Positions 920 to 17,579 of a stretch of DNA of 35,827 nucleotides are shown here, piece by piece. Both the position numbers and the translations under genes were made by a program. Origin of the DNA: a virus. The stretch is from IMG/VR virus record IMGVR_UViG_3300021085_000098, positions 1 through 35,827 of that record; one strand, given 5' to 3'. The stretch's first letter is position 1. Each line of letters begins with the position of its first letter. The notes under the pieces were generated by a model. The model was not told the origin of the DNA and did not search any database. It saw only the letters and a list, made by a program, of their open reading frames with translations.

Positions 920-2818
920 TTATTCTTTGTATTTGCCGTTGGTGTCAGTGAACCACATAAACCCGTCATTTATAACAGCGTGGCCTGCCCCGATAAGCGC
1001 GTCCACAGCTTGCTTGTAGACTGACCGTGGATTGGACGATGAGGACACTTTGCCAGCAAAGTGATCCTTCACCGTTTCCTCTTGTATCATCCAGTGCGTG
1101 CGAGGTTCGGGGAATCCTGCTCCGGCAGGGTTAGGCTGGCCTATGCCCTCGCCGCGCAATTGAGTGAACACTTGCCGAATTAGGACTTGATTCTTGCCCT
1201 TGATGCGTGGGCGGTTGGCTTCCTCGATCTCACTCTCGGACGCTTGCTGCACGGTACACGTGGTCACTGCATCGCCATCCTCATCTATTCCAAGCTCAAC
1301 TACGTTCAACTTGAATGAAAACAATGCCCCCGTTTCCATGTCGCGCTGCTTCGTTGCCTTTGCCGTGCGCATACCGTTGTTCTCATCATAGTCTAGTTCA
1401 ATCTCGGTATCCGTTGCCGCTCGAAGTGAGCTGTGACCACGCGCACCCGCGGCCTTGTCCTTGCCTGAGTGGTGAACGATTGCGACGTGTGCGCCCGTCA
1501 TGGTTCTCATCTTGTCACAGTTTCCGATAAAGCGCGTCATATCCTCTGGCGAGTTTTCGTTGCCGCCAGCCATAGACCGACTTAGCGTGTCCACAACGAT
1601 AAGTTTGACTTCGCCGTGGCGACGCGAGACTTCGCGGCAAAGCTTTTCCAATGCGATCATATCGACTTCGCCATCAAGCAAGTTGACGGGCGCTGGTCGC
1701 ACCGCAAGCTTCACGTCTTTATGGTCGGGATACTGCTTGCTTAGCGCAACCACGCGGTTGTGAAACGCCATGCCGCCCTCGGTTGCCAGATACAAAACTG
1801 AGCCGCCTATAACCTTGTGGCCGTTCCATGTCTCGCCACACGACACGTGCCACGACATATCCAAGGCAAAGAATGATTTACCTACGTTGGACGGGCCATA
1901 GATCACTGACATTTGCCCCTCGCCCAGCCACCCCTTCACAAGATAGTTGCGGCTAAGCTGTGGAACGGCGTCCCCAGGCATGAATACTTGATCCATGACG
2001 CTCTCAACAGTGAGGGCTTTCTTTGTCGCCTCTGGGCCTTGCGCAATCCACAAGTCTGAGAAGTCCCACCCGTCCTGCTCCGGCAAAACATGGTCTACGC
2101 CATGCTCTTCAAGGGCGCGCTCACATTCCTTAATTCCGGCGGCGTCATTGTCGCCAGCAATAACTAACTCTGCGCTAGGTTTTACCCTCTGGAGTGCCTC
2201 GACCACCGGGACTATGTTACCCGCGTTCAGTGCAAACACACATGGCTTCCCAGTGGCCTCGTAGACCGTGGCTGCGGTAGCCCAGCCTTCAGCTATATAT
2301 GCGAAGTCATTTATAGGGCCACCGATGACGCTAAAGTTGCCGACCACGGGTAGCTGGTAAGAGAATTTTTTACGGCCTTCTGTGTCGATAGACTGAGACC
2401 CGACCTTGCGACCCGTCGCGTCGATCACGGGGATGATTAGACGGTCGCCCTCAATCTTTGCATTGTGCAGGTTGAGGCGCTTCTTTTCGAGGTACGGGTG
2501 GTTGCTCATAGGGTCGCGCTCCGGCCAATCAATGTCAGTCTTCTTTTCTGCTGACTGAGATACGTGGCCCTCCTCTGGCCATAGTGACATATCGCGGAGC
2601 CTATCCTTGATTGATTTGTAATCGTTGCACTTGCGACAATTGACCATGACTTCACCGTGAAACTCCTTAATCCAGAACCTGTCAGTGCCGGAACATGATG
2701 GGCATGGCCCATGGAACTCGCCTTGCGCGGTTTTCTTTAGGTCCAGATTGGTAATGATGCTGTGGCCAAATTCGCCCCAACTTGCTGTCGGGTATCTGGT
2801 TTCGATTGTGTTTGCCAT
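920..2818 (-). CDS. Bifunctional DNA primase-helicase
   Basis: A 632-residue replication protein. An N-terminal zinc ribbon has Cys39 and Cys42 (CPSCSGTDRF, typical of phage primases) with Cys61 and Cys64. A Toprim domain follows, with Glu177 in YIAEGWATA and the acidic pair in AGDNDAAG (223-225). The C-terminal half is a RecA-fold RepA/AAA_25-like ATPase: Walker A GPSNVGKS (308-315), Walker B LIVVD (Asp410) and the HHSGK motif (449-453). The start at 2816-2818 follows an AGGAAGGG Shine-Dalgarno; a longer reading from 2878 adds 20 residues. It should prime and unwind DNA at the fork. It matters because no DNA polymerase is encoded, so its products must be extended by the host replisome. Confidence 0.93.
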   Translation of the reverse strand: MANTIETRYPTASWGEFGHSIITNLDLKKTAQGEFHGPCPSCSGTDRFWIKEFHGEVMVNCRKCNDYKSIKDRLRDMSLWPEEGHVSQSAEKKTDIDWPERDPMSNHPYLEKKRLNLHNAKIEGDRLIIPVIDATGRKVGSQSIDTEGRKKFSYQLPVVGNFSVIGGPINDFAYIAEGWATAATVYEATGKPCVFALNAGNIVPVVEALQRVKPSAELVIAGDNDAAGIKECERALEEHGVDHVLPEQDGWDFSDLWIAQGPEATKKALTVESVMDQVFMPGDAVPQLSRNYLVKGWLGEGQMSVIYGPSNVGKSFFALDMSWHVSCGETWNGHKVIGGSVLYLATEGGMAFHNRVVALSKQYPDHKDVKLAVRPAPVNLLDGEVDMIALEKLCREVSRRHGEVKLIVVDTLSRSMAGGNENSPEDMTRFIGNCDKMRTMTGAHVAIVHHSGKDKAAGARGHSSLRAATDTEIELDYDENNGMRTAKATKQRDMETGALFSFKLNVVELGIDEDGDAVTTCTVQQASESEIEEANRPRIKGKNQVLIRQVFTQLRGEGIGQPNPAGAGFPEPRTHWMIQEETVKDHFAGKVSSSSNPRSVYKQAVDALIGAGHAVINDGFMWFTDTNGKYKE

Positions 2819-2892
2819 TGTAATGCCCTTCCTGACTGCCTCGTTTCGGTTAAGGGGGTGCCGACTTGTCGAAGTCATTACCCCTTAGTGGA

Positions 2893-2921
2893 TATGTCCC
2901 GACACATAGCGCCGGGACATA
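2893..2921. other. Perfect 9-bp inverted repeat between SSB and primase genes
   Basis: TATGTCCCG (2893-2901) and CGGGACATA (2913-2921) form a perfect 9-bp stem with an 11-nt loop. It lies in the 109-bp gap between the SSB stop and the primase start. Read leftward, in the direction of both genes, no T-tract follows. On the rightward strand a short T-run does follow. It could be an operator, an mRNA processing or attenuation structure between the two genes, or a terminator of rightward readthrough. Confidence 0.6.
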
Positions 2922-2927
2922 ATATTT

Positions 2928-3557
2928 TTAAAATGGAATTTCGTCATCCAAGTCGTTGATTGATGGTGTAGCGGTTGTAGCAGGTAGTCCGAACGGATCA
3001 TCGTTTTGAGCCGAAGGGCTGGTGGTGAAGCCGCCAGCAACTGCGGTGAACGGGTCATCCGCACCTTGCATTTCTGCAAGCTCAAGAACCTGCACAGCAC
3101 GCAAGCGAAGTGAAACTCCGTTGAGGCTTCCCGTATTATACGGGACTACAACCACGGCAATATTGCATTTGCTGCCCGTCGTAAGCATGAAGTCGTCAGG
3201 CAGCTTGTTGCGTGCTGCGTCAACCTGCTTTGGCGGCTGTGTCTTGTCGCCACCATATGCGCCCTTCAGCTTGCACTTGCCGATGACTTCGCCGTCATCG
3301 TTGCGCTTGTACGGAAGGTTAGTTGGCTTCTCTGGCCATTTGCGCTTCGCATCCAAAGCAGATGCGTTCTTGTAGGCTTCCAAGCACAAGTTGTGTAGCT
3401 CTTTGGCTGTCTCGTCTGACATGACGAATGACATTTCGTATGCAGCACCATCATCAAATGGATTACATTTGACTGATTTGTTCTCCATGCTGTCGAAGCG
3501 ATAGGTACTGTTTAGGCGGGGATAGCGGGCCGTAACCCCTGTTAGCATATGTTGCAT
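2928..3557 (-). CDS. Single-stranded DNA-binding protein with SSB-type acidic tail
   Basis: A 209-residue protein resembling the phage ssDNA-binding family of Enc34 gp and DUF2815. Known members have an OB fold and coat single strands during replication and recombination. The body contains KGAYGGDKTQPPKQVDA and the hydrophobic strand CNIAVVVVPYN. The last 60 residues are low-complexity, rich in Ser, Thr and Asp, and end in DLDDEIPF, nearly the DDDIPF tip with which bacterial SSB recruits host replication and repair proteins. The start is the ATG at 3555-3557, with AAGGAG six bases upstream; a TTG six bases earlier is less likely. It lies between the RecE-like nuclease and the primase in the leftward operon. 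Confidence 0.85.
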   Translation of the reverse strand: MQHMLTGVTARYPRLNSTYRFDSMENKSVKCNPFDDGAAYEMSFVMSDETAKELHNLCLEAYKNASALDAKRKWPEKPTNLPYKRNDDGEVIGKCKLKGAYGGDKTQPPKQVDAARNKLPDDFMLTTGSKCNIAVVVVPYNTGSLNGVSLRLRAVQVLELAEMQGADDPFTAVAGGFTTSPSAQNDDPFGLPATTATPSINDLDDEIPF

Positions 3558-3576
3558 TTGCAACTCCTTTTGTTGT

Positions 3577-3593
3577 GCGTAGCACCCCTACGC
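3577..3593. other. Small hairpin in the SSB gene leader
   Basis: GCGTAG (3577-3582) pairs with CTACGC (3588-3593) across a 5-nt loop. It lies between the nuclease stop and the SSB ribosome binding site. There is no T-tract, so a leader or mRNA-stability role is more likely than termination. Confidence 0.4.
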
Positions 3594-3602
3594 TGGGATA
3601 AG

Positions 3603-4400
3603 TTAAAAGGCGGTTTCGCTGTCCATCCATGCAGGAAGGTGAACCGTGCCAAGGTCGGGCCATTGTGTGCCGTAATGGTCCTCGTCTTGCGCCTTTTTAA
3701 TTAGCTGTAGCGTGTCCATCACGCGGTTGTGCGCGTGGCGCAAGTACATTTCGGACAACTCGTAACAGGCTGTGACGTGCGGCTTATCTTTTTCTATGCC
3801 GATGAAGATAAAGTTATCAACACGAACGTCGCAAAGCTTCAAGACATATGTATAGAAAGCGGCCTGCAAATCGTAGCCGAAGTTGCGAATAGTACGATCA
3901 AAGCCTTGCGGTGACACGTCTTGGGTTGTTTTCACGTCTAGCACAATGCCAGAGTCTAAGATCAAGCCGTCTGGGCGCGTCTTTAGCTCCAAGCCCGTCT
4001 CTGGGCAGGTGGCGAAGAATGAAGCCTCGGCGACCATTGCAGGGTTCATCAGCAAGTGATTGGCCATGCGGTTATCAAGGCAAGCGCTGGACATATCCTT
4101 GGCCAAGTCGAAGTCGGATTCGGTCAAGAATATCTTACCGTTTGCCTCGGCTTCAGCCTTGCCCTCAGACCATGCCTTGCCGCGCCGTGTCTCTGGCCCG
4201 CGAACAAGCAATTGCTTTTCTGGCTCAAGTAGCTCGGCGTGTACTGCGCTGCCTAGTGCAAAAGCTGGGCTTTCCTTGCGCACTTGGCCCTTCCAGTGTG
4301 CCAGCGACTTGGTTGCGACTGTTTTGATTGATGATGATCCAAGCGCGTGGTGTGCGTGGTATTGTTCGTTTGACATTCCATCAGATGTTATCATTGTCAT
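3603..4400 (-). CDS. RecE/lambda-exonuclease-like PD-(D/E)XK nuclease
   Basis: A 265-residue protein of the phage RecE-C/DUF3799-type exonuclease group. Visible motifs, in order, are FALGSAVHAELLEP (47-60), which carries the helix-1 glutamate; TRPDGLI with Asp144; IVLDVKTT with Asp155 and Lys157, the catalytic DxK; and the YDLQAAFYTY helix (176-185) typical of RecB-type nucleases. It should resect double-stranded ends 5' to 3' for recombination. No RecT, Erf or Beta-type annealing protein is recognisable nearby, so the SSB downstream or a host protein would have to assist. The ATG at 4398-4400 overlaps the stop of the upstream gene (ATGA) and follows AAGGGAACACA; an upstream reading from 4445 lacks a Shine-Dalgarno. 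Confidence 0.85.
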   Translation of the reverse strand: MTMITSDGMSNEQYHAHHALGSSSIKTVATKSLAHWKGQVRKESPAFALGSAVHAELLEPEKQLLVRGPETRRGKAWSEGKAEAEANGKIFLTESDFDLAKDMSSACLDNRMANHLLMNPAMVAEASFFATCPETGLELKTRPDGLILDSGIVLDVKTTQDVSPQGFDRTIRNFGYDLQAAFYTYVLKLCDVRVDNFIFIGIEKDKPHVTACYELSEMYLRHAHNRVMDTLQLIKKAQDEDHYGTQWPDLGTVHLPAWMDSETAF

Positions 4401-4663
4401 TGTGTTCCCTTCTTTTCGTAGTATGCCATGCTTGCGTCGAGGCATCTTTGATAATGCGCTCCTGCGTCCCCATCAATGTCCTTCCAGATGTCCATTTGCG
4501 CTATATCTCCGCCAACCCAGCGATTGTCGGCGATAAGGCAACCCTCGGCATTGTCTATATTAGCAAGAGCAAGGCCGACCAGTGCAATTCCGTCTGGAAG
4601 CTCGTAGCCAGCTATTTCCTGAATAAAATCGTAATCAACATTTTTCTCCCAATCGTACTCCAT
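4397..4663 (-). CDS. Small acidic protein of unknown function
   Basis: An 88-residue acidic protein with no domain that I recognise. It has a tyrosine- and tryptophan-containing N-terminus (MEYDWEKNVDYDFIQE), a hydrophobic middle (LPDGIALVGLALANID) and a charged C-terminus. It starts with AAGGGG 8 nt before the ATG and is translationally coupled to the exonuclease that follows by an ATGA overlap. That suggests the two are made together, but there is no direct evidence of interaction. A possible promoter lies just upstream. Confidence 0.7.
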   Translation of the reverse strand: MEYDWEKNVDYDFIQEIAGYELPDGIALVGLALANIDNAEGCLIADNRWVGGDIAQMDIWKDIDGDAGAHYQRCLDASMAYYEKKGTQ

Positions 4664-4689
4664 ATTTTAACCCCTTTAATGATTGTTTG

Positions 4690-4717
4690 CATATATATTT
4701 CATATATTCAAGTGCAA
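4690..4717 (-). promoter_or_regulatory. Possible sigma70-type leftward promoter
   Basis: Read on the minus strand, TTGCAC (4712-4717) and TATATG (4690-4695) are separated by 16 bp, in an AT-rich 74-bp gap just upstream of the gene that starts at 4663. A second TTGCAC lies 7 bp further upstream, in tandem. The match to consensus is only moderate. Confidence 0.4.
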
Positions 4718-4737
4718 AGTGCAACTGGAATCCGGTG

Positions 4738-5280
4738 TCACACGTAGTCAATGAAGCGGTTTTGATCCTTGGCCCACATGACATATGAGGGGCGGCGCAT
4801 ACCCACGCGGCCATAAACCTCGGCGCGAGAAACAAGGCCAGCATTAAACGATCGCATAGCGCTATTGCCGACTGTCTTATGTGGCAAATCTAAATGCTCG
4901 CTAATCTCAGAGGTCGTGCAGAAAGTTGTGGCCTCGATAAACTCAAGTACCTTTCCGTCAATTTCCTCGCGAGATAGTTCCTGCGGACGCTCATCATCTT
5001 GATTGATAGGCACTTCAAAAGCGGGTTCATCCTGGTTGTCATTCTCGTTTAATTCGTCGGCATTTAATAGAGAAACCTTAACGGCCATGTATGCCGTGCC
5101 ATTGTTGGACTTGTCCGCATAATTAGGGACAAGCACAGCCTCCACTCGGTCGGATGGCTGCAAATCCATGCCAGCAGCAACGTGTGCCGGAATAAAAACC
5201 TGCTCATTTACAGGCTCAATTGCGTGGCCAAAGCAAAAGCCGCGCGTGTGGCTGTTGGTTATGATTACTGTAGCTTCCAT
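4738..5280 (-). CDS. Possible cold-shock-like domain joined to a winged helix
   Basis: A 180-residue protein in two parts joined by an acidic linker. Residues 1-71 read like a cold-shock/OB-type barrel: TRGFCFGHAI, then VFIPAHV, then DRVEAVLVPN, comparable to the GFGFI and VFVH positions of cold-shock proteins. Residues 72-105 are Asn-, Asp- and Glu-rich. Residues 106-170 look like a winged helix (TTSEISEHLDLPHKTVGNSA, then the wing strand RRPSYVMW). It could bind nucleic acid at both ends and act as a regulator of early genes or replication. The fold assignment of the N-terminus is inference. The start has AAGGAAATACA upstream. It lies in the leftward operon, 13 bp after the PD-(D/E)XK nuclease gene. 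Confidence 0.65.
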   Translation of the reverse strand: MEATVIITNSHTRGFCFGHAIEPVNEQVFIPAHVAAGMDLQPSDRVEAVLVPNYADKSNNGTAYMAVKVSLLNADELNENDNQDEPAFEVPINQDDERPQELSREEIDGKVLEFIEATTFCTTSEISEHLDLPHKTVGNSAMRSFNAGLVSRAEVYGRVGMRRPSYVMWAKDQNRFIDYV

Positions 5281-5293
5281 TGTATTTCCTTAT

Positions 5294-5797
5294 TTATATT
5301 TTAAGATTTGATGTGCGAGCGGCAAACCATAGCCGCTCAAGTGGTGATAGATCATCTTGATCCATGGCCCAGCCTTTGCCGTGGCCTAAATCAAGCTCTA
5401 CTGCCTTTTCCATGAATGTTGCCTTTGATGCGTAGCCAGCAACATTAAACTGGTCTGGTCTTAGCTGGCAGACTAGAACCGCGCAGTCCGCTTTGAATGA
5501 CTCCTTTTTCTTAAACAGTAATCGCCCGCCCTTGTGGAACGTGGCCTTCACATCAACTGATATGTCATCAAGCCAAAGGTCGTGGCCGTCATCCACACCC
5601 ATGGAATAGTCGTGGTCAAGGTTGAAAACCTTGGACACGGCTACCTCCGCTTTAACCCCAAGCAAATCAAGATCAGCATCGCTTCGCCCATTGTCGCGCC
5701 GTTGATTAGCAACACCTGACGCCCTTGCAAGCTGCCAGCGCAATGCCGCCGCCTGATTACACTTGGACATTTCCTTGGGCGAAAGCTTTACCAGCAT
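5294..5797 (-). CDS. PD-(D/E)XK-type endonuclease
   Basis: A 167-residue protein with the restriction-endonuclease-like core: Glu51 in VKAEVAVSKVF, Asp73 in the HDLWLDD strand, and Asp82-Val-Lys84 in SVDVKAT, followed by strand ADCAVLVCQLR. Length and layout match single-domain phage nucleases whose possible roles include junction resolution, host DNA breakdown or packaging trimming. The exact role cannot be told from sequence. The ATG is preceded by AAGGAT. A hairpin with an internal micro-ORF lies upstream at 5835-5878. It is the first of several nucleases in this leftward block. Confidence 0.7.
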   Translation of the reverse strand: MLVKLSPKEMSKCNQAAALRWQLARASGVANQRRDNGRSDADLDLLGVKAEVAVSKVFNLDHDYSMGVDDGHDLWLDDISVDVKATFHKGGRLLFKKKESFKADCAVLVCQLRPDQFNVAGYASKATFMEKAVELDLGHGKGWAMDQDDLSPLERLWFAARTSNLKI

Positions 5798-5834
5798 GAT
5801 TTGATCCTTATTTTAAAGGGGTTTTGTCTAGCGC

Positions 5835-5878
5835 TTATGGAGGAAACTAACGAATTAGGCGGCTCATTACCTCCATAA
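5835..5878 (-). promoter_or_regulatory. Leader hairpin enclosing a six-codon ORF
   Basis: On the minus strand, TTATGGAGG (5878-5870) pairs perfectly with CCTCCATAA (5843-5835). The 26-nt loop exactly holds ATG-AGC-CGC-CTA-ATT-CGT-TAG (5867-5847). The stem's GGAGG is only 2 nt before the ATG, short for a ribosome binding site; the in-frame ATG in the stem is the alternative start. No T-tract follows. The element lies between the gene ending at 5883 and the endonuclease starting at 5797. A translational-attenuation role is speculative. Confidence 0.4.
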
Positions 5879-5882
5879 AAGA

Positions 5883-6146
5883 TTATTCATTAAGTATTCT
5901 GTGAACGATCATGCGGTGGATACCGCTATCCCCGTGTATATCCAGACCTTGCGCCAAGTATTCGTTGTGGATGCGGCGGCGGTCCTTAATCGAGGCTGTT
6001 GAGAATACTTGCTTTTGCGGGTTGGAAATTTTCCAGAACCACGCAATCCCCATGTAGTCGGGCGTGCCAACTAGATTGTGGTCCGCTTCGGTCAAGCTTT
6101 TCAACGCGCCGATGGTTACGTCCGGCAAATCAATATTAATTGTCAC
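5883..6146 (-). CDS. Small protein of unknown function
   Basis: An 87-residue protein with no family that I recognise. It begins MTINIDLPDVTIGALKSL, has a Trp-containing middle (MGIAWFWKISNP) and a basic patch (KDRRRIHNEYL), and ends with a His-rich helix. The start is GTG (6144-6146) with GGAGGG about 9 nt upstream, and it overlaps the end of the preceding gene by 11 bp, indicating coupled translation. Its position among early replication genes is the only clue to its role. Confidence 0.7.
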   Translation of the reverse strand: MTINIDLPDVTIGALKSLTEADHNLVGTPDYMGIAWFWKISNPQKQVFSTASIKDRRRIHNEYLAQGLDIHGDSGIHRMIVHRILNE

Positions 6147-6603
6147 GAACCTTGCCCTCCCATGTTATGCCAAATTCTTCAAAGCGCTCAATTTGGTACT
6201 TGTTTGGCTCACATTTGAGGTACTGAAAGATCATGCCAGAAATGGAGCTGAAGTCTCTGACTTGACGAAGTGAAAGGCGAGCATCGTGCATCTGAATAAG
6301 CGCGGCAAGGTCTGAAGACGTTTTTGATATGCGGCGCTTGTCCTCGCAGAAATCATCAAAAGATGGGTTCCAGTCGAATTGCTCCGAAAGCAACTCAGCG
6401 GACCGGATGAATACAACCAAATCGTCGTATTCAAGGTCTAAGAAATAATCGACTGACTCGGAAAGGCTTGCGCTTGAATGAAACAGGTCGTTCAGTGCTT
6501 CAAGCTCATCGCTGCCAAGCGCGGCAATATCTTTTGCGCGGGCGATATAACCAACCTTAATATCATCCCAGAACTCTTTGGTGTTGTGCGGGTTAGTTGT
6601 CAT
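6136..6603 (-). CDS. Acidic protein of unknown function, first gene of leftward block
   Basis: A 155-residue, mostly helical and acidic protein (a SASLSESVDYFLDLEYDD stretch; SFDDFCEDKRRISKTSSDL further on). No domain is recognisable. I chose the ATG at 6601-6603 (MTTNPHNTKEF) because GGAG lies 7 nt upstream in a leader, GGAGAACACA, shared with other early genes; the ATG at 6615 has none. It is the first gene of the long leftward block, transcribed away from the divergent control region at 6616-6733. Confidence 0.75.
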   Translation of the reverse strand: MTTNPHNTKEFWDDIKVGYIARAKDIAALGSDELEALNDLFHSSASLSESVDYFLDLEYDDLVVFIRSAELLSEQFDWNPSFDDFCEDKRRISKTSSDLAALIQMHDARLSLRQVRDFSSISGMIFQYLKCEPNKYQIERFEEFGITWEGKVRDN

Positions 6604-6636
6604 TGTGTTCTCCATGTTTGTTTGTGTTGTGCTTAT

Positions 6637-6665
6637 CTTAAATCAGAACCGCAATATATTTGCAA
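6637..6665 (-). promoter_or_regulatory. Possible leftward early promoter
   Basis: On the minus strand TTGCAA (6660-6665) is followed after 17 bp by TTTAAG (6637-6642). Downstream is a C/A-rich leader leading to the GGAG of the gene starting at 6603. The -35 resembles the TTGCA hexamers at the other candidate promoters in this genome. The match to sigma70 consensus is modest. Confidence 0.4.
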
Positions 6666-6678
6666 TAGCTTATTTCAC

Positions 6679-6706
6679 TTGCCTGCATATCCCAACAATA
6701 TATGAT
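6679..6706 (+). promoter_or_regulatory. Possible rightward early promoter
   Basis: TTGCCT (6679-6684), a 16-bp spacer and TATGAT (6701-6706) lie 28 bp before the first gene of the rightward operon. TATGAT matches five of six positions of the consensus -10. With the leftward candidate at 6637-6665 it would make a divergent promoter region of about 120 bp. Confidence 0.5.
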
Positions 6707-6733
6707 CGAACCAATGGAAAAAGGGGTTAAGCA

Positions 6734-6895
6734 ATGAATGATGTGAAGAAATTAATCGGGTTCAGCGCCACAGCGAACGCAGCAATCTCGGAAGCCGCGC
6801 TTAAGGTCGGGCTAAGTTTTAGCGCTTTCACACGTAGCGCTGCGCTGAAAGAGGCCAGCAAAATCGTTGAGGCGCAAGAGCCGAAGGTGGACTGA
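6734..6895 (+). CDS. Small ribbon-helix-helix-like protein
   Basis: A 53-residue protein. Its core, EAALKVGLSFSAFTRSAAL, followed by KEASKIVEAQ, matches the helix-turn-helix half of ribbon-helix-helix proteins (compare the GLSLSAFIRxAAL pattern of DUF1778 and MobC-type regulators). Members bind operators as dimers through an N-terminal strand, here perhaps NDVKKLIGFSAT. AAAAGGGG lies before the ATG. The stop overlaps the RuvC start by one base (TGATG), so the two are coupled. As the first gene of the rightward operon, it could autoregulate the divergent promoters or bind the downstream ATTCATAC array; both are inference. Confidence 0.65.
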   Translation: MNDVKKLIGFSATANAAISEAALKVGLSFSAFTRSAALKEASKIVEAQEPKVD

Positions 6896-7362
6896 TGCTG
6901 ATATATGGTATTGATCCGGGCTTTACGGGCGCAATCGCCCTATACTGGCCCGACACCGGCAAGCTGGAAGTCCACGACATGCCAGTGATGAAAAACCCAA
7001 AGGGTAAAACGATCATCAACCCGCACGGCGTCCTGGACATACTCGCAAACGAAGGCGGCAAGTCATTGGCCGTGATCGAGAGCGTGGCGGCCCGGCCTGG
7101 CCAGGGGGTGTCGTCAGTCTTTCGTTTCGGTGAGGGCTACGGGCATTTGCAAATGGCTTGCGCTGCCTGCAAGTTGCCGCTCCAATATGTAACGCCAGCA
7201 ACATGGAAGCGTCATTTTGGACTGACCTCTAGCAAGGGTTTGAGCCGTGGACTTGCGATGCAACGCTTCCCAGATCAAGCCCAGAACTTCAGCCGAGTGA
7301 AGGACGATGGAAGGGGTGAAGCTGCCCTAATAAGCCTGTACGGTGCTGAAAAGCTAATTTGA
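6895..7362 (+). CDS. RuvC-like Holliday junction resolvase
   Basis: A 155-residue protein of the RuvC/RNase-H fold group. Asp7 sits in GIDPGFTGAIAL, Glu62 ends strand SLAVIE, and the C-terminal helix carries an acidic cluster in KDDGRGEAALIS (Asp137, Asp138, Glu142); these give the metal-binding carboxylates of the family. The middle contains the typical FGEGYGHLQM and PATWKRHFGL segments. It should cut four-way junctions and branched replication intermediates before packaging. The length is normal for phage RuvC proteins. It is coupled to the ribbon-helix-helix-like gene upstream and followed by the ATTCATAC array. Confidence 0.88.
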   Translation: MLIYGIDPGFTGAIALYWPDTGKLEVHDMPVMKNPKGKTIINPHGVLDILANEGGKSLAVIESVAARPGQGVSSVFRFGEGYGHLQMACAACKLPLQYVTPATWKRHFGLTSSKGLSRGLAMQRFPDQAQNFSRVKDDGRGEAALISLYGAEKLI

Positions 7363-7386
7363 GGTTTTTCCGGTGTGTAATAATTT

Positions 7387-7528
7387 GTATGAATTAGGGG
7401 GGCATTGTTTTTAAAGGGTTTTATGCTCTGCAATTCATACAATTCATACGAATTATTAAACTATTCATACAATCGGTGCATGTGTATGAATGTATGAATA
7501 TACCTTCAGGTATTCATCCAATTCATTA
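7387..7528. repeat. ATTCATAC iteron-like array (possible origin or operator)
   Basis: Six exact copies of an 8-mer lie in 113 bp: GTATGAAT at 7387-7394, 7484-7491 and 7492-7499, and its complement ATTCATAC at 7433-7440, 7442-7449 and 7463-7470. One-mismatch (7512-7519) and two-mismatch (7521-7528) copies follow. The central copies face each other as two tandem pairs, one in each orientation. The region is AT-rich and noncoding. A small hairpin, ATACC-TTCA-GGTAT, lies at 7500-7513. Arrays of this kind serve as replication initiator sites or as operators. No initiator protein other than the primase-helicase and ribbon-helix-helix-like protein is obvious. Confidence 0.8.
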
Positions 7529-7554
7529 AGCACACGAAAATGAGGTTGATTAAG

Positions 7555-7830
7555 ATGGATCAAGAAAGAGAAAACAAGATCAGGGCATGGATCAACCACG
7601 GAATTAACACGAAGGGAGCAATAGTACATCCTGCCGGAACACATAAGGTTTCGCCAAAGTCCACGTTCCAGCAAAAGCTGGACAGCATCAAAACACTGGC
7701 CGAGCTGGAAGGATTTGCAAATCGTCGCTCGCTCTACGATCCAAGCTTGCCGCGTTGGACAGAAAACGAACGCGCGGCAATCATCCACAAGAAAACAGAA
7801 ATGCAAAACGTGAAGCGCAAGCGCAAATGA
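7555..7830 (+). CDS. Small basic protein of unknown function
   Basis: A 91-residue basic protein (MDQERENKIRAWINHGINT at the start, a C-terminal tail of alternating Lys and Arg). It might bind nucleic acid, but I recognise no domain. I chose the ATG at 7555 because GAGG lies upstream; an in-frame ATG at 7540 has none. It follows the ATTCATAC array directly, which makes a role at that site conceivable. Its stop overlaps an ATG (ATGA) that opens a 13-codon ORF. Confidence 0.7.
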   Translation: MDQERENKIRAWINHGINTKGAIVHPAGTHKVSPKSTFQQKLDSIKTLAELEGFANRRSLYDPSLPRWTENERAAIIHKKTEMQNVKRKRK

Positions 7831-9655: not shown

Positions 9656-10165
9656 ATGGCGGGCAATGCTTTGCGGAGGCGTATCCTTGATGACATTAAG
9701 AAGCGTGGAGGCGCAGACTATCTAGCAGACAAAATTGGATCAGGCATGACTGTGACTCAACTGGCTGCTCAGTATGAGTGCAGCCGTTCTTACTTTAGTC
9801 GCTCAGTAAATGAGGTGCCAGAATATGCTGCCGCGATGAGTGACGCGCGGCACAGTTCGGCAGACGCGCTAGTTGAGCAGGGCTTGGAGATGGTTGACGC
9901 GCTTGACGGGGAAAGCACGACGCAGGAAATTGCTGCTACACGCGAGAAGGTTCAGTGGCGCAAGTTTATGGCTGGCTCGTATAACCAGGCGCGCTACGGT
10001 AATCGCCCCCAGACCAACGTGACCATATCTGTGAGTGACATGCACTTAGATGCGTTGCGCAAAGTAAATTCGGATATTGCCGCGCTTGAGGCTGATGATC
10101 GGCAGCGTGAAGCGTCGGCTATTGATGCGGATTATGCGGATTATGAGGATGTGACGGATGACTGA
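9656..10165 (+). CDS. terS: Terminase small subunit
   Basis: A 169-residue protein with an N-terminal HTH (residues 30-53, GMTVTQLAAQYECSRSYFSR), a central oligomerisation helix region (SSADALVEQGLEMVDALDG, then REKVQWRKFMAGSYNQARYG) and an acidic C-terminal tail that would contact the large subunit. The layout matches phage TerS proteins that pick the packaging start on concatemeric DNA. AGGAG precedes the ATG. It overlaps the large subunit by 8 bp. It is the first gene of the late operon and lies beside the noncoding region that may hold its recognition site. Confidence 0.88.
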   Translation: MAGNALRRRILDDIKKRGGADYLADKIGSGMTVTQLAAQYECSRSYFSRSVNEVPEYAAAMSDARHSSADALVEQGLEMVDALDGESTTQEIAATREKVQWRKFMAGSYNQARYGNRPQTNVTISVSDMHLDALRKVNSDIAALEADDRQREASAIDADYADYEDVTDD

Positions 10166-11558
10166 AGCTAACCCGCTAGAAGAGTTTGTGCTGCGTTACA
10201 AGGATGACCCTGTTCTGTTTGTTAAGGAGGTGCTGGGCGCGACGCCGTATGATTATCAGGCTGAGTTCTTGGATGCACTGGCCACTGGTGAGCGTAAAAT
10301 GTCTGTGCGGTCTGGTCACGGTACGGGTAAGTCTACTACGTCGTCATGGGCTATGTTGTGGTATGTTCTGCTGCGCTTTCCGAATAAGGTTGTTGTAACT
10401 GCGCCGACCAGCGGTCAGTTGTTTGATGCGTTGTTTGCTGAGTTGAAGCGCTGGATTAACGAGCTGCCGCCACAGTTGCAGGTTTTGTTGACGGTTAAGT
10501 CTGACCGTGTTGAGCTGGCTGCTGCGCCTGCTGAAGCGTTTATATCTGCGCGTACATCGCGAGCTGAAACGCCGGAGGCATTGGCTGGTGTTCACTCTGA
10601 GAATGTTTTGCTGGTTGTGGATGAGGCGTCGGGTGTTCCTGAGAAAGTGTTTGAGGCTGCTGCTGGTTCGATGTCTGGCCACTCTGCAACGACGATTTTG
10701 CTGTCTAACCCTACGCGGTCAAGCGGTACGTTTTTTGAGAGCCAGACTAGACTTGCAGACACGTGGTGGACACGGCGTTGGTCATGCGTTGATAGTCCGT
10801 TGGTGTCTGAAGAGTTTGTTGACGAAATGCGGCTTCGGTATGGCGAGGATAGCAATGCGTTTCGTATTCGTGTGCTTGGCGAGTTCCCAATGGCCGATGA
10901 TGATACGATTATTCCGTTTCACTTGGCTGACAGCGCGATTAGGCGTGATATTGAGATACCTGAAGACACAAAGCCAATTTGGGGTTTGGACGTTGCACGC
11001 TTTGGCGCGGATAAGACTGCGTTGTGCAAGCGGTACGGCAATGTTGTGACTGAGATTACGTCGTGGCAGGGTTTAGATTTGATGCAGACTGTTGGCCGTG
11101 TGATGGCTGAGTATGAGGGGTTAGCGCCATCTGTGCGTCCCAGCGAGATACTTGTTGATAGCATTGGCGTTGGCGGTGGTGTTGTTGATCGGCTGCGTGA
11201 GCTTGGTGCGCCTGTGCGCGGGATTAATGTTGGCGAAGCGCCTGCTATGGGTAACACGTATATGAATTTGCGGGCAGAGCTTTGGTTTAAGACTAAGGGT
11301 TGGCTTGAGGATCGTTCGTGCAAGCTGCCCAATGACGATCAATTGCTGGCAGAGCTGACGTCGATTAGGTACGGTTTTACGCCTGGCGGCAAAATGAAAG
11401 CTGAGAGCAAGGATGAAATGCGCAAGCGTGGGTTGAAATCGCCTGACTTGGCCGATGCTTTGTGCCTGACAATGGCGTCTGACGCTGCAACGGCTTTGTC
11501 TGGGTCAATGTCTACGTGGAAACAGTCGATTAGGCGCAATTTGCGGGGGATTGCATGA
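10158..11558 (+). CDS. terL: Terminase large subunit (ATPase and nuclease)
   Basis: A 466-residue packaging motor. ATPase motifs: Walker A GHGTGKST (53-60), Walker B VLLVVDEAS with Asp155 and Glu156, and the coupling motif LLSNPT (181-186). The C-terminal RNase-H-like nuclease shows Asp278 in WGLDVARFG, Asp334 in ILVDSIG, and Asp430 and Asp433 in SPDLADAL. All key residues are present, so it should be active. It binds the portal and pumps DNA into the head; with a P22-like portal, headful cutting is most likely. It is slightly shorter than many TerL proteins (about 480-550 residues) but appears complete. Confidence 0.95.
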   Translation: MTEANPLEEFVLRYKDDPVLFVKEVLGATPYDYQAEFLDALATGERKMSVRSGHGTGKSTTSSWAMLWYVLLRFPNKVVVTAPTSGQLFDALFAELKRWINELPPQLQVLLTVKSDRVELAAAPAEAFISARTSRAETPEALAGVHSENVLLVVDEASGVPEKVFEAAAGSMSGHSATTILLSNPTRSSGTFFESQTRLADTWWTRRWSCVDSPLVSEEFVDEMRLRYGEDSNAFRIRVLGEFPMADDDTIIPFHLADSAIRRDIEIPEDTKPIWGLDVARFGADKTALCKRYGNVVTEITSWQGLDLMQTVGRVMAEYEGLAPSVRPSEILVDSIGVGGGVVDRLRELGAPVRGINVGEAPAMGNTYMNLRAELWFKTKGWLEDRSCKLPNDDQLLAELTSIRYGFTPGGKMKAESKDEMRKRGLKSPDLADALCLTMASDAATALSGSMSTWKQSIRRNLRGIA

Positions 11559-11743
11559 AACAGGTGCCGTTTGACAAGCTGACGCCACATTTGAAGAATA
11601 TTGTGATGAATAAGTGGATTAAGCAGTATATTGCGCGAGGTTTGAGCTTAGAAGACGCACAGTATGCCGCGCGATGGCGATCCGGCACTTGGAAGCTAAA
11701 TGACCGTATGAAAAAGGTAATGGCAGCTTTGGACGAAGTGTGA
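11555..11743 (+). CDS. Small basic protein after terL
   Basis: A 62-residue, basic, Trp-containing helical protein (HLKNIVMNKWIKQYIARGLS, then DAQYAARWRSGTWKLNDRM). It is coupled to terL by an ATGA overlap. No family is recognised. Its position suggests a packaging or head-completion accessory, but that rests on neighbourhood alone. Confidence 0.7.
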   Translation: MKQVPFDKLTPHLKNIVMNKWIKQYIARGLSLEDAQYAARWRSGTWKLNDRMKKVMAALDEV

Positions 11744-11782
11744 TACGTTTCCCTTAAATTTATTGAGAAAAGGCGGTTTACC

Positions 11783-12430
11783 GTGAGCAATGGGTTAAGA
11801 AAAGGACTACTTGATTTAATTAACGGCGGCGGAATTGGCGCAGAGGGCGACAAGTTCCAAGGCGGTGGCTTGCTGTCTGTTTTGGCTAACGCTTTTGCGA
11901 CACCGTATGGTTCTGAAGATCGTGCTAAAGAAGCGCTTGCTGCTGGTTTGCTTGGCAAGACACGTCCGCAGATGCGTCCTAATCGCCCAGCGCCTGGCTC
12001 TGCTCCCGCTCCAGCATATACTCAGCCTATTAGTCTTTCTGAAATGTCGCGCAAGTTAGATGTGCAAGACGCGCCTTTGACAAAAATGTCTCAAATACCT
12101 GGCGGGTTTAACCCTGCAAGCGCTGCTCCTGTTCAGGTTGCCAGCCTGGGGGACAATGCTGGATTTGGGTCGGGCTTGCAGGGCGTAGATCAAAGCCCAA
12201 ACTATTTTGCGCCAAAAGACCCTTATATTGCACAAATTTCACCGACCAATCTTCCTAATGCTCCTCAACAGAGCGCGTTGCCGGATATGACGCCATCTAT
12301 CGGAGAATTTGTTGAATTTCTAAACCGACATTATGACCCAGCTTTTGTTAGAAGGGTCACTTTAGACTCGGATCGATTCGAAGACGCATACAGACTGTTT
12401 GTAAACAACGGCGGAAAGTTAACACCATGA
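11783..12430 (+). CDS. Pro/Gly-rich protein, possible virion component
   Basis: A 215-residue protein with a mostly disordered composition. It opens with MSNGLRKGLLDLINGGG, holds a proline-rich stretch (TRPQMRPNRPAPG, residues 60-72) and ends with a folded-looking acidic segment (IGEFVEFLNRHYDPAFVRRV). RPxxRP and RkGLL motifs recur in other virion genes here. The start is GTG with AAAGGCGG upstream; no better ATG is in frame. The position between terminase and the SLT transglycosylase suggests an ejection or internal protein. Function is not known. Confidence 0.6.
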   Translation: MSNGLRKGLLDLINGGGIGAEGDKFQGGGLLSVLANAFATPYGSEDRAKEALAAGLLGKTRPQMRPNRPAPGSAPAPAYTQPISLSEMSRKLDVQDAPLTKMSQIPGGFNPASAAPVQVASLGDNAGFGSGLQGVDQSPNYFAPKDPYIAQISPTNLPNAPQQSALPDMTPSIGEFVEFLNRHYDPAFVRRVTLDSDRFEDAYRLFVNNGGKLTP

Positions 12431-12519
12431 AAGCACCAGTATTTAAGCCGATCAAAGGTTGCCCGACCCCCGCTGCGTGCAAGCGTGAGGGTCAATGTCT
12501 TGGAAAGAAATACAAGTAA
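12427..12519 (+). CDS. 30-residue cysteine miniprotein
   Basis: A short gene coupled to the preceding one by ATGA. The product has three cysteines in GCPTPAACKREGQC, followed by a basic tail. The pattern could bind zinc or form a disulfide. Similar tiny CPTPxxC proteins occur, to my knowledge, in other phages, always without assigned function. Confidence 0.6.
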   Translation: MKAPVFKPIKGCPTPAACKREGQCLGKKYK

Positions 12520-12540
12520 TGTTTAACGAGGGCGCAACTT

Positions 12541-13053
12541 TTGGATAATCTAACTCCATTTGCCAAGTTAATGCAGGCTATTGCTATGCGCGAAAGCAGC
12601 GGCGATCCGACAAAGACGTCTGACGCTGGTGCAATTGGGTTGCTTGGCATAATGCCAAAAGACGCAATGCAAGGTATGCGCAGAAATGTTCCAAACGTGT
12701 TTGACGCTGCAACGGCTCTTGGTTTTGACTTTCCAGACCGTAGCCAGCAAACGGCCGAGGCTTTGTTGCGCGATCCGCAAATTAACAGTATGATTGGTGA
12801 AAAATACCTTACTGAGCTTGCTAATAAGTACCAAGGCGACCCGGAAGCCACATTAACGGCTTACAATGCTGGCCCAGAAAAGTATGACCGTATTGGCTCT
12901 GCTGCTGGTATGGACATACCAGAGCAGCGTGATTACTCAGCAGCGGTTGCGCGTGATTACATGGAGTTGTTTGGTGAGCCTATGCCAGAAAACTTAGCAA
13001 CATTGCAATCGCTTCGCCCGCGATTGCGCCCGCAAAGAGGATTGTTAGACTAA
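12541..13053 (+). CDS. Lytic transglycosylase (SLT family), virion-associated
   Basis: A 170-residue protein with the SLT fold: catalytic Glu18 in MRESSGDP, the GAIGLLGIMP motif (30-39) and TAYNAGP (106-112). It cleaves the glycan strands of peptidoglycan. Its place among virion genes, far from the endolysin, fits an entry enzyme that opens the wall for DNA ejection. The C-terminus is a short tail, RPRLRPQRGLLD, with motifs shared by other virion proteins of this phage. The start is TTG (12541), the only start in frame after a stop, with GAGGG about 10 nt upstream. Confidence 0.85.
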   Translation: MDNLTPFAKLMQAIAMRESSGDPTKTSDAGAIGLLGIMPKDAMQGMRRNVPNVFDAATALGFDFPDRSQQTAEALLRDPQINSMIGEKYLTELANKYQGDPEATLTAYNAGPEKYDRIGSAAGMDIPEQRDYSAAVARDYMELFGEPMPENLATLQSLRPRLRPQRGLLD

Positions 13054-13673
13054 TGGCCATAACAACATACGCAGAGTTGAAAGCGTCAATTACTGACTTT
13101 CTCAACCGCGACGACTTAGACACAGTTACGCCGACGTTTATTTCGTTGGCTGAATCTGATTTGCAGCGCCGCATACGTCACTGGCGCGGCGAAAAGCGCA
13201 GTTCTGCTGAAATTGACACGCAATACAGCGCAATTCCTGCTGATTTCTTGGAAGCCATTCGTTTTTACATCACTGGCGGCGATACGCGCCCGCTTGAGTT
13301 GATTTCGCAGAATGAGTTGCTTGACCGCAAGTTTAAAAACTTAAACACCAGCGGCCAGCCTGCATATTACGCGATTACGGCGGGTGAAATTGAAGTTTAC
13401 CCAGTTCCAGACGCAACTTATACGACTGAGCTGTATTATAACTCCAGAGTACCTGCTTTGAGCGACAGCACGACGACAAATTGGCTTTTGGAGTATTATC
13501 CAGACGCATATTTGTACGGTTCGCTGGTTCACTCGGCACCGTATTTAAAAGAAGACGCACGCCTGCAAACTTGGGCGGCGTTGTATCAAAGTGCAGTTGA
13601 CGCAATCAATAATGAGAGCGAAAGCAGCAAATTTGGCGGTTCTGGCCGCAAACTCAAAATTAGGAGCTACTGA
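13053..13673 (+). CDS. SU10-type adaptor (head-to-tail connector) protein
   Basis: A 206-residue protein matching the SU10_adaptor family. It begins with TYAELKASITDFLNRDDLDT, has SAIPADFLEAIRF, then GEIEVYPVPDATYTTELYYN and the signature PALSDSTTTNWLLEYYPDAYLYGSLVHSAP region (split here for length: PALSDSTTTNWLLEYY, PDAYLYGSLVHSAP). Members form the ring below the portal to which the tail binds. Its presence with an SU10-like capsid protein supports a podovirus assembly. It overlaps the transglycosylase by one base. Confidence 0.85.
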   Translation: MAITTYAELKASITDFLNRDDLDTVTPTFISLAESDLQRRIRHWRGEKRSSAEIDTQYSAIPADFLEAIRFYITGGDTRPLELISQNELLDRKFKNLNTSGQPAYYAITAGEIEVYPVPDATYTTELYYNSRVPALSDSTTTNWLLEYYPDAYLYGSLVHSAPYLKEDARLQTWAALYQSAVDAINNESESSKFGGSGRKLKIRSY

Positions 13674-13675
13674 GC

Positions 13676-14062
13676 ATGAGTTTTTCAAATGCAACAGAAA
13701 CGCTGGTGCTAAACTGGCTTTTGACTACTGGCAGCGCAACGCGGCCTACATCTTGGCACCTTGCGTTGTTTACGAGCAACCCAGCAGAAGATGCGAGTGG
13801 CACAGAAGTTAGCACGTCTGGCACAGCATATGCGCGTCAGTCGGCTGCGTTTACTGTTTCTGGCAACACAGCGTCAAATACGTCTGCGATTGAGTTTCCG
13901 ACAGCCACTGCGTCATACGGCACAGTCAGCCACGTTGGCGTTTATGACGCGTCTACTGGCGGTAATTTGCTTGCATACGCAGCATTGACCACAAGCAAAG
14001 CAATCGACACTGGCGATGTGTTGCGCGTACCTGCTGGCGATCTTGACATCACGCTAGACTAA
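13676..14062 (+). CDS. Tail-fibre-like Gp80-type protein
   Basis: A 128-residue beta-rich protein that resembles a small fibre or attachment family often seen beside tail genes. Typical segments are MSFSNATETLVLNWLL, WHLALFTSNP, GTAYARQSAAF, the strand pair EFPTATASYGTVSHVGVYDA, and GDVLRVPAGDLDITLD at the C-terminus. It is likely a virion component at the tail or head surface. It starts 2 bp after the adaptor gene, so the two are made together. Confidence 0.75.
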   Translation: MSFSNATETLVLNWLLTTGSATRPTSWHLALFTSNPAEDASGTEVSTSGTAYARQSAAFTVSGNTASNTSAIEFPTATASYGTVSHVGVYDASTGGNLLAYAALTTSKAIDTGDVLRVPAGDLDITLD

Positions 14063-14065
14063 TAA

Positions 14066-14791
14066 ATGACAGATGTAGTCTACAGGACTGGATTTGGTAC
14101 TAGCGCTTTCGGTGTCCGAGCTTTCGGCGTTGATGGCGCGACTAAAGCCGTGGCCAGCACTGTTGTTACTGTAAGCGCTACGTCGTCTGCATCTACTCGC
14201 GTTAGGCTATCTGCATCTATTGTTGCGGCGTCTTCGTCAAACACGTCTTCGTCTGCGCGCGTTCGCGAGATTGCAGGCACTGCGTCAACTTCAGCAAGCA
14301 CTGTAAGCGCCGCCCAGCGCGTTAGACTTGCAGATGGCGACGTCAGTGCTTTAGCATCCACACAAAGCGCATGTGAGCGCGTACAGCAGCCCTCTGCGTC
14401 TACTGACGTGTCAGCATCCGCTACGGGCGGTGTTGAGCGCGTAAGGCTATCAGACGGCTCGGCTGCTGCCTTGGCCAGCACATCAGTCAACACGGTGTTT
14501 ATTTATGTGTTTGACGCTGCATCATCTGTATCGGCTGTGTTTACGCCGACTGTTGAGCGTGTGCAGTTTACTGGCTCTAACATTGCGCTGACGTCTGCGT
14601 TTTTGGCCAATGCGGTTGAGAAGTGGGAGCCTGAAGCTGGCACTGATGAAACATGGACTACACTTGCGGGAACACCAGAAATATGGCAGGATGCACCCAA
14701 CGCATCCGGCGGCTGGACGGCGTCTCCCCTCACATCACAGGATTGGACAGCAGCCCCGGCGAGTGCTGACGATTGGATTGCTGCGGCATAG
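14066..14791 (+). CDS. Repeat protein: 20-residue units then a 10-residue Trp ladder
   Basis: A 241-residue virion-type protein built almost wholly of exact repeats. From residue 45 to 184 seven units of exactly 20 residues start at 45, 65, 85, 105, 125, 145 and 165; six begin Arg-Val (RVRL, RVRE, RVRL, RVQQ, RVRL, RVQF) and the fifth boundary at 145 reads FIYV. Units are rich in Ala, Ser and Thr, with an ALAST-like segment. From residue 187 tryptophans fall at 187, 197, 207, 217, 227 and 237, exactly ten apart. Such length precision points to a beta-solenoid or trimeric fibre shaft. Neighbours are fibre genes. I recognise no named family. Confidence 0.75.
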   Translation: MTDVVYRTGFGTSAFGVRAFGVDGATKAVASTVVTVSATSSASTRVRLSASIVAASSSNTSSSARVREIAGTASTSASTVSAAQRVRLADGDVSALASTQSACERVQQPSASTDVSASATGGVERVRLSDGSAAALASTSVNTVFIYVFDAASSVSAVFTPTVERVQFTGSNIALTSAFLANAVEKWEPEAGTDETWTTLAGTPEIWQDAPNASGGWTASPLTSQDWTAAPASADDWIAAA

Positions 14792-14800
14792 GAGAATATC

Positions 14801-17254
14801 ATGGCGGATACAACCACAACAACATACGGCCTAGTTAAACCAGAAGTCGGCGCGTCAGAGGACACGTGGGGCGAAAAAATTAACACAAACCTCGACAATA
14901 TCGACAATCTGCTTGACGGCACGACGCCTGTAACTGGCATTGATATTAACTCTGGTACGATTGGCGGCGTGACTGCTGACGGTAACATTTCGTTTGGCGA
15001 CAATAACAAGGCCATTTTCGGCGCAGGGTCTGACCTACAGATTTACCATGATGGGTCTAATAGTTATATTGATGAAACTGGCACTGGAACGCTTAGAGTA
15101 AGAGGGTATAATCAGGTTCGTATAACAGATACATCTGATAATATTGCGGCTATATTTAAAGGTGATGCTGAAACAACTTTATACCACAACAATGCATCCA
15201 AACTCGCCACCAGCAGCAGCGGTGTAGACGTCACTGGGACTTTGACCAGCGATGGGCTGACTGTGGGTGATGGGCATACGATTGGCGACGATGGATTTGA
15301 CAATCTTGTCATTGCATCATCCGCAGCGGAAAGCATTATTCTGAATAGCAACACATTCCCTACAGTTGTTAAAACAGATGCGGAATTTCGTGTAGAAACA
15401 GACTTTGGAACTGATCGTTTTAAGGTTGATACCTCCACAGGCGACATCAGCTTCTACGAGGACACAGGCACCACGCCAAAGTTCTTCTGGGATGCGAGTG
15501 CGGAGAGCTTGGGGATTGGAAATGCATCACCATCATCTTTCCCATCTGCGGCTAAAGACCTTGTTATTGGCAATACCACTGGCTCTCACGGTATTACAAT
15601 TCAATCTCAAAATTCTAGCAACGGAAACATATACTTTACTGACACTACTACCGCTGCAAGCTACAATGGTTTTGTTCGTTACTATCACGGAGACAATGCA
15701 CTTGGATTTGGAACGAACAACGGCACAGAACGCATGCGCATCGACAGCACTGGTGTAGACATCACAGGCACAGTGACCAGCGATGGGCTGACTGTGGATA
15801 AAGCAAGTTCCCCTGCAATTACTTTACAAGAGACTACAGGCACTTACGGTTATAAAATCCACACAGCCGTTTCGAGTTCAACTGATTATGGCTTGCGATT
15901 GAGAACTTTGGCAAATAAAGAGTTGGCCATTTTTAACTCCAACGGCGACGTCAGCTTCTACGAGGACACAGGCACCACGCCAAAGTTCTTCTGGGATGCG
16001 AGTGCGGAGAGCTTGGGGATTGGTGTTACAGACCCAGATAGTGGGCTTGAAGTTCAATCCTCTGCAAGCGGTACTAACTCTGTGCATCTATCCAACACAA
16101 GTTCAACTGGGTACGGTGCAAAGTTTGTGGGCGGCGGCAATACTTCAACACGATATATTGCAGATTTCCGTGATTACTCTGGTACATCAAAAGTTAAGAT
16201 TGATGGTGATGGTAATGTTGGGATTGGTGTAACATCTCCAGATAATCAACTTTGCATAGCCTCTGGGAGTGACGGTACAGGGGTCGGAGATGGGATTGCC
16301 TTTTACGGAGCGGGGTCTAACAAGCAAGCTGCTATAGAAAGTTATAACGCTGGCAGTTACAGTGGTGACTTGCGTTTTTATACTGTTAATAAAGGACAAA
16401 TTGATACTAATGTGTCAGAAGCCATGCGCATCGACGCCAGCGGTAACTTGCTGGTGGGGACTACTACATTAGGTCTTTATAATCAGTCATCCGAAACAGG
16501 TTTAACATTTGGCTCTAACCTTCAGATTGCCCGTGATGGCGGCACGGTCGGGTATTTCAACCGCCTAACCTCTGACGGCAACATCGTTCAGTTCCGCAAA
16601 GACGGCGCAACTGTGGGGAGTATTGGTGTAATTTCTACTGACAATCTAGGTATTTTTGGGACTGCCTCTAGTCATGCTGGCCTTGTTTTTGGCACCAATG
16701 TAGTTCTTCCTGCTGTTAATAGCACCTATCTTACAAGTGCTGTAGACCTTGGGAATGAAAGCACAAAATTCAAAGACCTCTACCTCTCAGGCGGTGTCTA
16801 CCTCGGCGGCACTGGTTCGGCTAATAAGCTGGAGGACTATGAGGAGGGGACTTGGACTCCGGCATACGCTGGGTCAAGTACTGATGGGACTTACACATAT
16901 AGCGAACAACAAGGACATTACATTAAAATCGGAAATCAAGTCACCTGTTGGTGGAATATGACGAACGTTGCAACAACCACTGAAGGGACAGGAACTGTAA
17001 GTATTGAAAACCTACCGTATGCTGCTAACTGGGCAAGCGGTTTTAACGGCGAGGCGATTGGATCGTGCCAGTTGAATGGGTTTACCAATATTGATGGCGA
17101 TTTTATATCTGTAAAAGTAAATGACGGCGAAACCCGTATTCTAGTCTACAAGCAAACAGGTTCGAATAACAGCACAGAATCTGTATCTATCGGCCATAAA
17201 GTTAGTGGCGGATCGGACGTTAGGGGTTTTGTTACTTACTACGTTGGCGGATAG
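14801..17254 (+). CDS. Tail fibre protein
   Basis: An 817-residue fibre of marine-phage type. The N-terminus ([21 protein letters not shown], with [13 protein letters not shown]) is the usual virion-binding start. The shaft holds many beta-repeat phrases ([46 protein letters not shown]). The tip begins [11 protein letters not shown] and continues with [15 protein letters not shown], a C-terminal adhesin form common in marine phages. It should trimerise and bind the host surface. Two 73-bp identical DNA blocks sit inside the gene. There is no S74 chaperone domain at its end; that domain occurs instead in the gene at 21990. Confidence 0.88.
15447..15519 (+). repeat. Intragenic 73-bp repeat, copy 1
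   Basis: This block is identical to 15951-16023 within the tail fibre gene and encodes a shaft unit containing [15 protein letters not shown]. The identity continues a further 6 bp upstream after one mismatch. Near-perfect DNA identity suggests recent duplication or gene conversion. Confidence 0.9.
15951..16023 (+). repeat. Intragenic 73-bp repeat, copy 2
   Basis: Second copy of the block at 15447-15519, 504 bp away and in frame. Recombination between the copies would remove or add exactly 168 codons and change the fibre length without breaking the frame. Confidence 0.9.
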
Positions 17255-17266
17255 TCGCATAATCAC

Positions 17267-17284
17267 CCCTGTTGGATAACAGGG
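17267..17284 (+). other. Hairpin after the tail fibre gene
   Basis: CCCTGTT (17267-17273) pairs with AACAGGG (17278-17284) around a GGAT loop. No T-run follows, so it may stabilise the 3' end of the fibre message or weakly pause transcription rather than terminate it. Confidence 0.5.
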
Positions 17285-17315
17285 TAGTCAGTCCAACCAT
17301 CAAAGGAGATAAACG

Positions 17316-17567: not shown

Positions 17568-17579
17568 TAGGAGGCTGAC

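Follow-up and report, generated by a model that had tools for sequence, protein, structure and literature searches.

Which protein, if any, reads the cluster of short repeats in noncoding DNA upstream of a small basic ORF of this phage, and does replication start there? The window, i.e., the whole stretch of 35,827 nucleotides analysed, is a complete circular phage genome of 35.6 kb, the ends of which share a 194-bp overlap containing 1 mismatch. A first-pass annotation, made from the letters alone, had proposed a plasmid-style replication origin with its own control gene, or a multi-site operator, and had remarked on the lack of a polymerase, which fits the absence of matches to PF00476 and PF00136, the two families searched. 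It is considered likely (probability roughly 0.8) that 7377-7528 is an iteron replication origin bound by the winged helix of the helicase-primase that the phage itself encodes, with a host polymerase elongating.

Six exact copies of the 8-mer ATTCATAC, here referred to as the word, are found at 7387(-), 7433(+), 7442(+), 7463(+), 7484(-), and 7492(-), together with two degenerate copies, ATTCATCC at 7512 and ATTCATTA at 7521, which is the count that had been reported earlier. Dinucleotide shuffles of the whole window yield the word 0.86 times on average and 3 times at most, i.e., fewer than one copy is expected by chance in the entire 35.6-kb genome, and off the array no 8-mer of any kind exceeds 3 copies per 150 bp anywhere in the window. 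Outside the array, a search of the whole window returned a single copy of the word, at 21291-21298, which is consistent with chance. Because a variant, GTAATAAT (ATTATTAC reversed), lies at 7377, just beyond the initially proposed start at 7387, the array is better bounded as 7377-7528 (Table 1). The order of the words is reverse-reverse, forward-forward-forward, reverse-reverse, and two degenerate forward copies within a hairpin, for which the earlier description as tandem pairs facing each other was roughly right. Arm 1 of this hairpin consists of the reverse words at 7484 and 7492, and arm 2 of the degenerate forward words at 7512 and 7521. As in iteron origins, the array is thus made up of tandem short repeats in AT-rich noncoding DNA.

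Table 1. Coordinates of the array, its elements, and the associated genes in the window.
Feature	Position	Strand	Basis or remark
Helicase-primase: Zn ribbon/TOPRIM primase, RepA-type AAA_25 helicase, winged helix	920..2878	-	Pfam; PDB match
C-terminal winged-helix domain of the helicase-primase, proposed iteron reader	923..1213	-	Covariation, AlphaFold2 model
SSSSNPRSV, nine positions holding all word-separating residues, start of recognition helix	1019..1045	-	
53-aa RHH-like ORF, not word-specific	6734..6895	+	Pfam sub-threshold, NikA-like E=0.0017
RuvC-like resolvase, upstream neighbour	6895..7362	+	phrog_1770, E=1e-33
Iteron array, putative replication origin	7377..7528	.	Repeats; anatomy conserved in relatives
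Left reverse words GTAATAAT (7377) and GTATGAAT (7387)	7377..7394	-	Word positions
Spacer element TTTTTAAAGGGTTTTATG	7408..7425	+	Inspection; most relatives have an IHF-like site (AAATCAATGGGTTA) at the same position
Forward words 7433, 7442 (9 nt apart), and 7463	7433..7470	+	
Imperfect hairpin, apex CCTTCAGG	7481..7534	.	Folding as DNA, -9.0 kcal/mol, z -2.2
Small basic ORF7540	7540..7830	+	Stays beside the array family-wide; not word-specific

Relatives were found via homologues of RuvC and ORF7540 in IMG/VR contigs, where the same stretch occurs at the same place, and a nucleotide search returned no named phage relatives. The layout is kept in the relatives: two reverse words, a spacer with the IHF-like site, two forward words at a spacing of approximately 9-10 nt, a third forward word, then reverse words, and the hairpin, the apex of which is usually CCTWTAGG-like. 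Comparison of the repeats in related phages, a check that the first-pass annotation had asked for, shows that this anatomy is conserved and that the word itself varies, e.g., ATTCATAC, ATTATTAC, ATTAATAC, ATTATGAT, ATTAGTAT, AATGTTAT, ATTTATAC, TTTGTAGT, TCGTAC, TTTCATACG, and others, becoming GC-richer farther off. The arrangement of outer reverse words around a forward pair is present in 96 of 102 unique arrays and in 0 of 50 random stretches, a count that measures layout and not presence, because the regions were mostly chosen for a word repeated at least 3 times. The IHF consensus occurs on the forward strand of 31 of the 102 arrays and on the reverse strand of 1 (shuffles, 1.2), and the spacer of the window itself matches the IHF-like site only weakly. 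When scored by folding (an ungapped hairpin counter was too strict), strong hairpins are found for all 42 helix types, with z of -3.0 or lower and a median z of -6; the hairpin of the window is weaker than those of its relatives.

The array is located immediately downstream of the helicase gene in many relatives, including the roseophages CRP-821, -831, -811, and -823, in which it lies directly 3' of the helicase-primase gene. The word is ATTTATAC in CRP-821/831, TTTGTAGT in CRP-811/823, and TTTCCAGCC in CRP-406. In the window clade, the array is apart from the helicase gene, by 6.5 kb in the window and approximately 7 kb in L045, and adjoins RuvC/ORF7540 instead. Some arrays (L012, L025, and L056) are of mixed composition, with ATTAATAC on the left side and ATTCATAC on the right, as if the halves had been homogenised separately. 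Two distant relatives, L084 (upstream of 2514) and L086 (upstream of 7696), have the GC-rich words GCGCTTCAC and TTGGGACAG before an ORF7540-like gene. Related helicase C-terminal domains were also seen in three bacterial assemblies, namely, a Rhodobacteraceae bin (L181), Sulfitobacter dubius (L184), and Silicimonas algicola (L185), with a repeat/hairpin region downstream of the domain in L181 and L185; these contigs are probably prophages or phage contigs with the same system.

In the window clade, in which the array and the helicase gene are unlinked, it was asked which protein follows the word. Five ATTATGAT genomes were compared with six ATTAATAC/ATTCATAC genomes across 14 proteins. The helicase-primase contains seven columns that separate the word classes, all within residues 594-602 (TTASNKSQV vs SSAANPRST), and zero such columns were found in SSB, exonuclease, wHTH, PDDEXK, RHH, and ORF7540. 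HTH and x6559 have one separating column each, based on smaller samples (for HTH, just 3 genomes in one class), and in RuvC the one such column results from the array displacing the stop codon. Eleven proteins are represented in every one of the 11 genomes (1,983 columns, of which 520 are variable); in these, the only gap-free separating columns are the seven in helicase residues 594-602, and among the 462 possible label splits only the true one reaches seven separating columns within ten residues, the next best reaching three. Outside the helix, the word classes are intermixed, e.g., the genome nearest to L045 is L056, which is of the opposite class; the seven-column pattern is therefore not accounted for by common descent or by linkage. 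Computationally, the word thus covaries with the start of the recognition helix of the helicase-primase, although the array is some 7 kb away.

The separating residues fall in a C-terminal domain of about 97 residues that no Pfam family covers, and a PDB sequence search with the domain profile gave no credible domain match. The AlphaFold2 model of the domain, built on 38 homologues, is a winged helix (pLDDT 93.5, pTM 0.85) whose modelled recognition helix spans domain residues 62-75, the word-separating residues being 57-65. Foldseek with this model returned mainly winged-helix domains (CRP/GlxR, linker histone, MCM, cullin WHB, and PadR), the best match being weak (E 0.027). A model of the whole helicase from a single sequence was unusable (pLDDT 42); for the motor, the nearest solved relative in the PDB sequence match is RSF1010 RepA (E=2e-6).

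The C-terminal domain of the helicase-primase tracks the word family-wide too. CRP-823 and CRP-831 have 100% identical TerL, TerS, and portal proteins and differ in word and helicase C-terminus, both of which CRP-823 has in common with CRP-811. Between CRP-811/823 and CRP-821/831, the part of the helicase-primase that changes with the word comprises its final ~110 residues; no such correspondence is seen for SSB, RHH, or terminase, and the ORF after the array shows scattered differences only. Within the AATG clade, one column among the compared proteins separates the 8 genomes whose words are of the AATGTTAG/A type, which have W, from the 11 with AATGTTAT, which have N/S; it is the second residue after a conserved Asn and lies at the same helix position. 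Both sets are weaker than the unlinked test because the array adjoins the helicase gene there, and linkage alone could explain the association in these clades. Across all arrays, with the register set by hand and the last base of the word left free, Arg at this residue goes with C (nine helix types), Asn/Ser mostly with T, and Trp with G/A, the exception being one Ser helix type that goes with T or G.

The genes surrounding the array are as they had been described, namely, an RHH-like ORF, a RuvC-like resolvase, and a small basic ORF. The slot after the 53-aa RHH gene varies: RuvC occupies it in the window clade, and a gene for either a PDDEXK endonuclease or a cytosine methyltransferase does so in the CRP phages (L089-L099). 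ORF7540 has no family match and belongs to a conserved uncharacterised family with the motif LxGFANRR...LP.W...ER..I..RK (window, L004, L045, L061, and L093), which keeps beside the array even where the array has left the helicase gene; the family is possibly a replication accessory protein. As readers of the word, these neighbours were rejected: identical RHH proteins occur beside different words, i.e., the RHH does not follow the word in the manner of a ParG/CopG-like RHH operator, and near-identical copies of RuvC and of ORF7540, the latter with zero separating columns, accompany different words as well. The same holds for the wHTH protein at 4738-5280, which is identical in L044/L045 (ATTATGAT) and L052 (ATTAATAC/ATTCATAC), and the HTH protein downstream of the helicase shows no clear tracking. 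The suggestion that the protein of 6734-6895 or that of 7555-7830 controls the array is therefore not borne out, and since the word changes in step with the helicase-primase domain, the reader is not one of the suspected neighbours. Of the plasmid-style origin with a control gene beside it, the origin is the part best supported, by the conserved anatomy and by a word that follows the helicase helix, and the neighbouring control gene is the part that fell away.

An array placed directly upstream of ORF7540, with this linkage kept among relatives, might also be a multi-site operator through which the helicase-primase or a neighbour controls ORF7540 and the following genes while replication starts elsewhere. 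This is regarded as unlikely: the covarying domain is fused to a primase-helicase, which would be unusual in a protein that only regulates, a promoter search of the array region gave nothing beyond chance, and neither RHH nor ORF7540 tracks the word. It is less likely still that the words covary by pairing with each other in a conserved RNA or single-stranded DNA fold and are not protein sites. The words do make inverted repeats and long hairpins, but in L008 the left word is GTATGAAT and the middle word ATTATTAC, differing within one array, the tight link to seven helicase residues is not predicted by pairing, and Rfam gave no family at the gathering score, with just chance-level miRNA matches below it.

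The cosB site of lambda has repeats and an IHF site, and the array might by this likeness be a packaging (cos/pac) site read by the terminase small subunit. Its location in the replication operon and not beside the terminase genes, together with the identity of TerS and TerL in CRP-823 and CRP-831 despite their different words, makes this exceedingly improbable. It is hardly more credible that the choice of word rests with the host or with a phage protein encoded nearby (RHH, wHTH, RuvC, or ORF7540), for which proximity speaks: CRP-821 and CRP-823 infect the same strain, FZCC0197, and have different words, CRP-811 and CRP-823 infect different strains and have their word in common, and identical RHH or wHTH proteins stand beside different words.

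An origin read by the C-terminal domain of its own helicase-primase would resemble several known systems. In P4, a single polypeptide, the alpha protein, acts as primase and helicase and binds iterons through a winged helix, as outlined in a passage of PMC4234260 that cites Yeo et al. 2002. The phage protein would unite the same three functions in one chain, the winged-helix reading being proposed here, and the 8-bp type 1 repeats of P4 ori/crr (TGTTCACC) form tandem and inverted pairs 9-11 nt apart, like those of the present array. As in the P4 alpha family, a TOPRIM primase is fused to a helicase, and the primase parts are homologous (26% identity, E=1e-16). However, the P4 motor is a D5/pox-type helicase and the motor here is of the AAA_25/RepA type, and the C-terminal domain, a winged helix by model, has no detectable homology to that of alpha (hhalign probability 0.8%). 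In SaPI Rep, the helicase C-terminal domain recognises iterons directly downstream of the helicase gene (PMC7581432), which is the gene order of most relatives described here; its helicase and primase families differ from those of the phage, and the window clade departs from this gene order, its array having been relocated beside RuvC/ORF7540, 6.5 kb from the proposed reading domain. With a P4-type primase but a different motor and a non-homologous C-terminal domain, the phage protein may work like P4 alpha and SaPI Rep and is a member of neither family. RSF1010 uses iterons and stem-loops for priming (PMC4234260), with three separate proteins, RepA, RepB', and RepC, of which RepC reads the iterons, in contrast to the one fused protein here. 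With PLE RepA and ICP1 Odn, a nuclease directed at the origin exerts selection under which the origin words diverge and replication modules are exchanged (PMC8263062). PLE RepA is a RepA_N initiator without helicase, unlike the helicase-primase, and the present analysis identified no nuclease of this kind.

The proposed initiation would proceed as follows. The C-terminal winged helix of the TOPRIM-primase/RepA-type helicase, which computationally behaves as a cognate initiator by covarying with the repeats, would bind the 8-9 bp iterons directly, and in most relatives an IHF-type host architectural protein would probably bend the spacer. The bound complex could then open the AT-rich DNA and load the hexameric helicase, after which the fused primase would start synthesis, possibly via the adjacent hairpin, and the host polymerase would elongate. 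Because the DNA-reading domain of the primase-helicase changes together with the iteron array, the protein is interpreted as a self-loading initiator at its own origin. It might control transcription as well. GC skew, which had been suggested as a check, follows gene strand and has no turning point at the array, most clearly so in the cultured roseophages, whose array is inside an operon; it is uninformative as an origin test.

The replication genes of the window (helicase-primase, SSB, RHH, and the array) are homologous to those of CRP-811/821/831, as in the CRP-822-type family (PMC12629253). The virion genes scanned, a part of the set, comprise an Sf6-like TerS (Pfam PF20901), a portal protein (phrog_1216), and a DNA ejection protein (phrog_4287), unlike the annotation of the CRP phages, whose structural genes include those for a major tail protein, a tape measure, and head-tail joining; the nearest TerL is 62% identical (MW202879). 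The replication module at 920-7830 thus matches CRP-822-group roseophages, the scanned virion genes in 9656-29106 look P22/Sf6-like, and a common replication module is apparently found with different virion types. In a term search of the roseophage paper (PMC12629253), neither repeats nor intergenic regions came up and 'origin' occurred once, and a full-text literature search, with coverage mostly without subscription papers, did not find the combination of a primase-helicase and an iteron array that covaries with its DNA-reading domain described.

It is tentatively put forward, at somewhat less than even odds, that these phages have a modular, switchable origin code, in which a few residues where the recognition helix of the helicase-primase begins, one of them tracking the last base of the word, change repeatedly together with the 5-8 repeat copies of an unlinked array, which would make the origins of phages with a common host orthogonal to each other. 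Competing phages, satellites, or nucleases directed at the origin perhaps exert the selection behind such changes, and the nucleases of ICP1/PLE are one precedent of word change (PMC8263062). For a widespread marine phage group, for which the papers found describe no origin, a testable candidate origin and initiator are now at hand. More than a dozen natural word/helix pairs sit in nearly constant backgrounds, and therefore the DNA-reading rules of a winged helix and the joint change of an initiator and its site become directly testable. The pairs also predict whether one phage would be able to fire the origin of another during co-infection.
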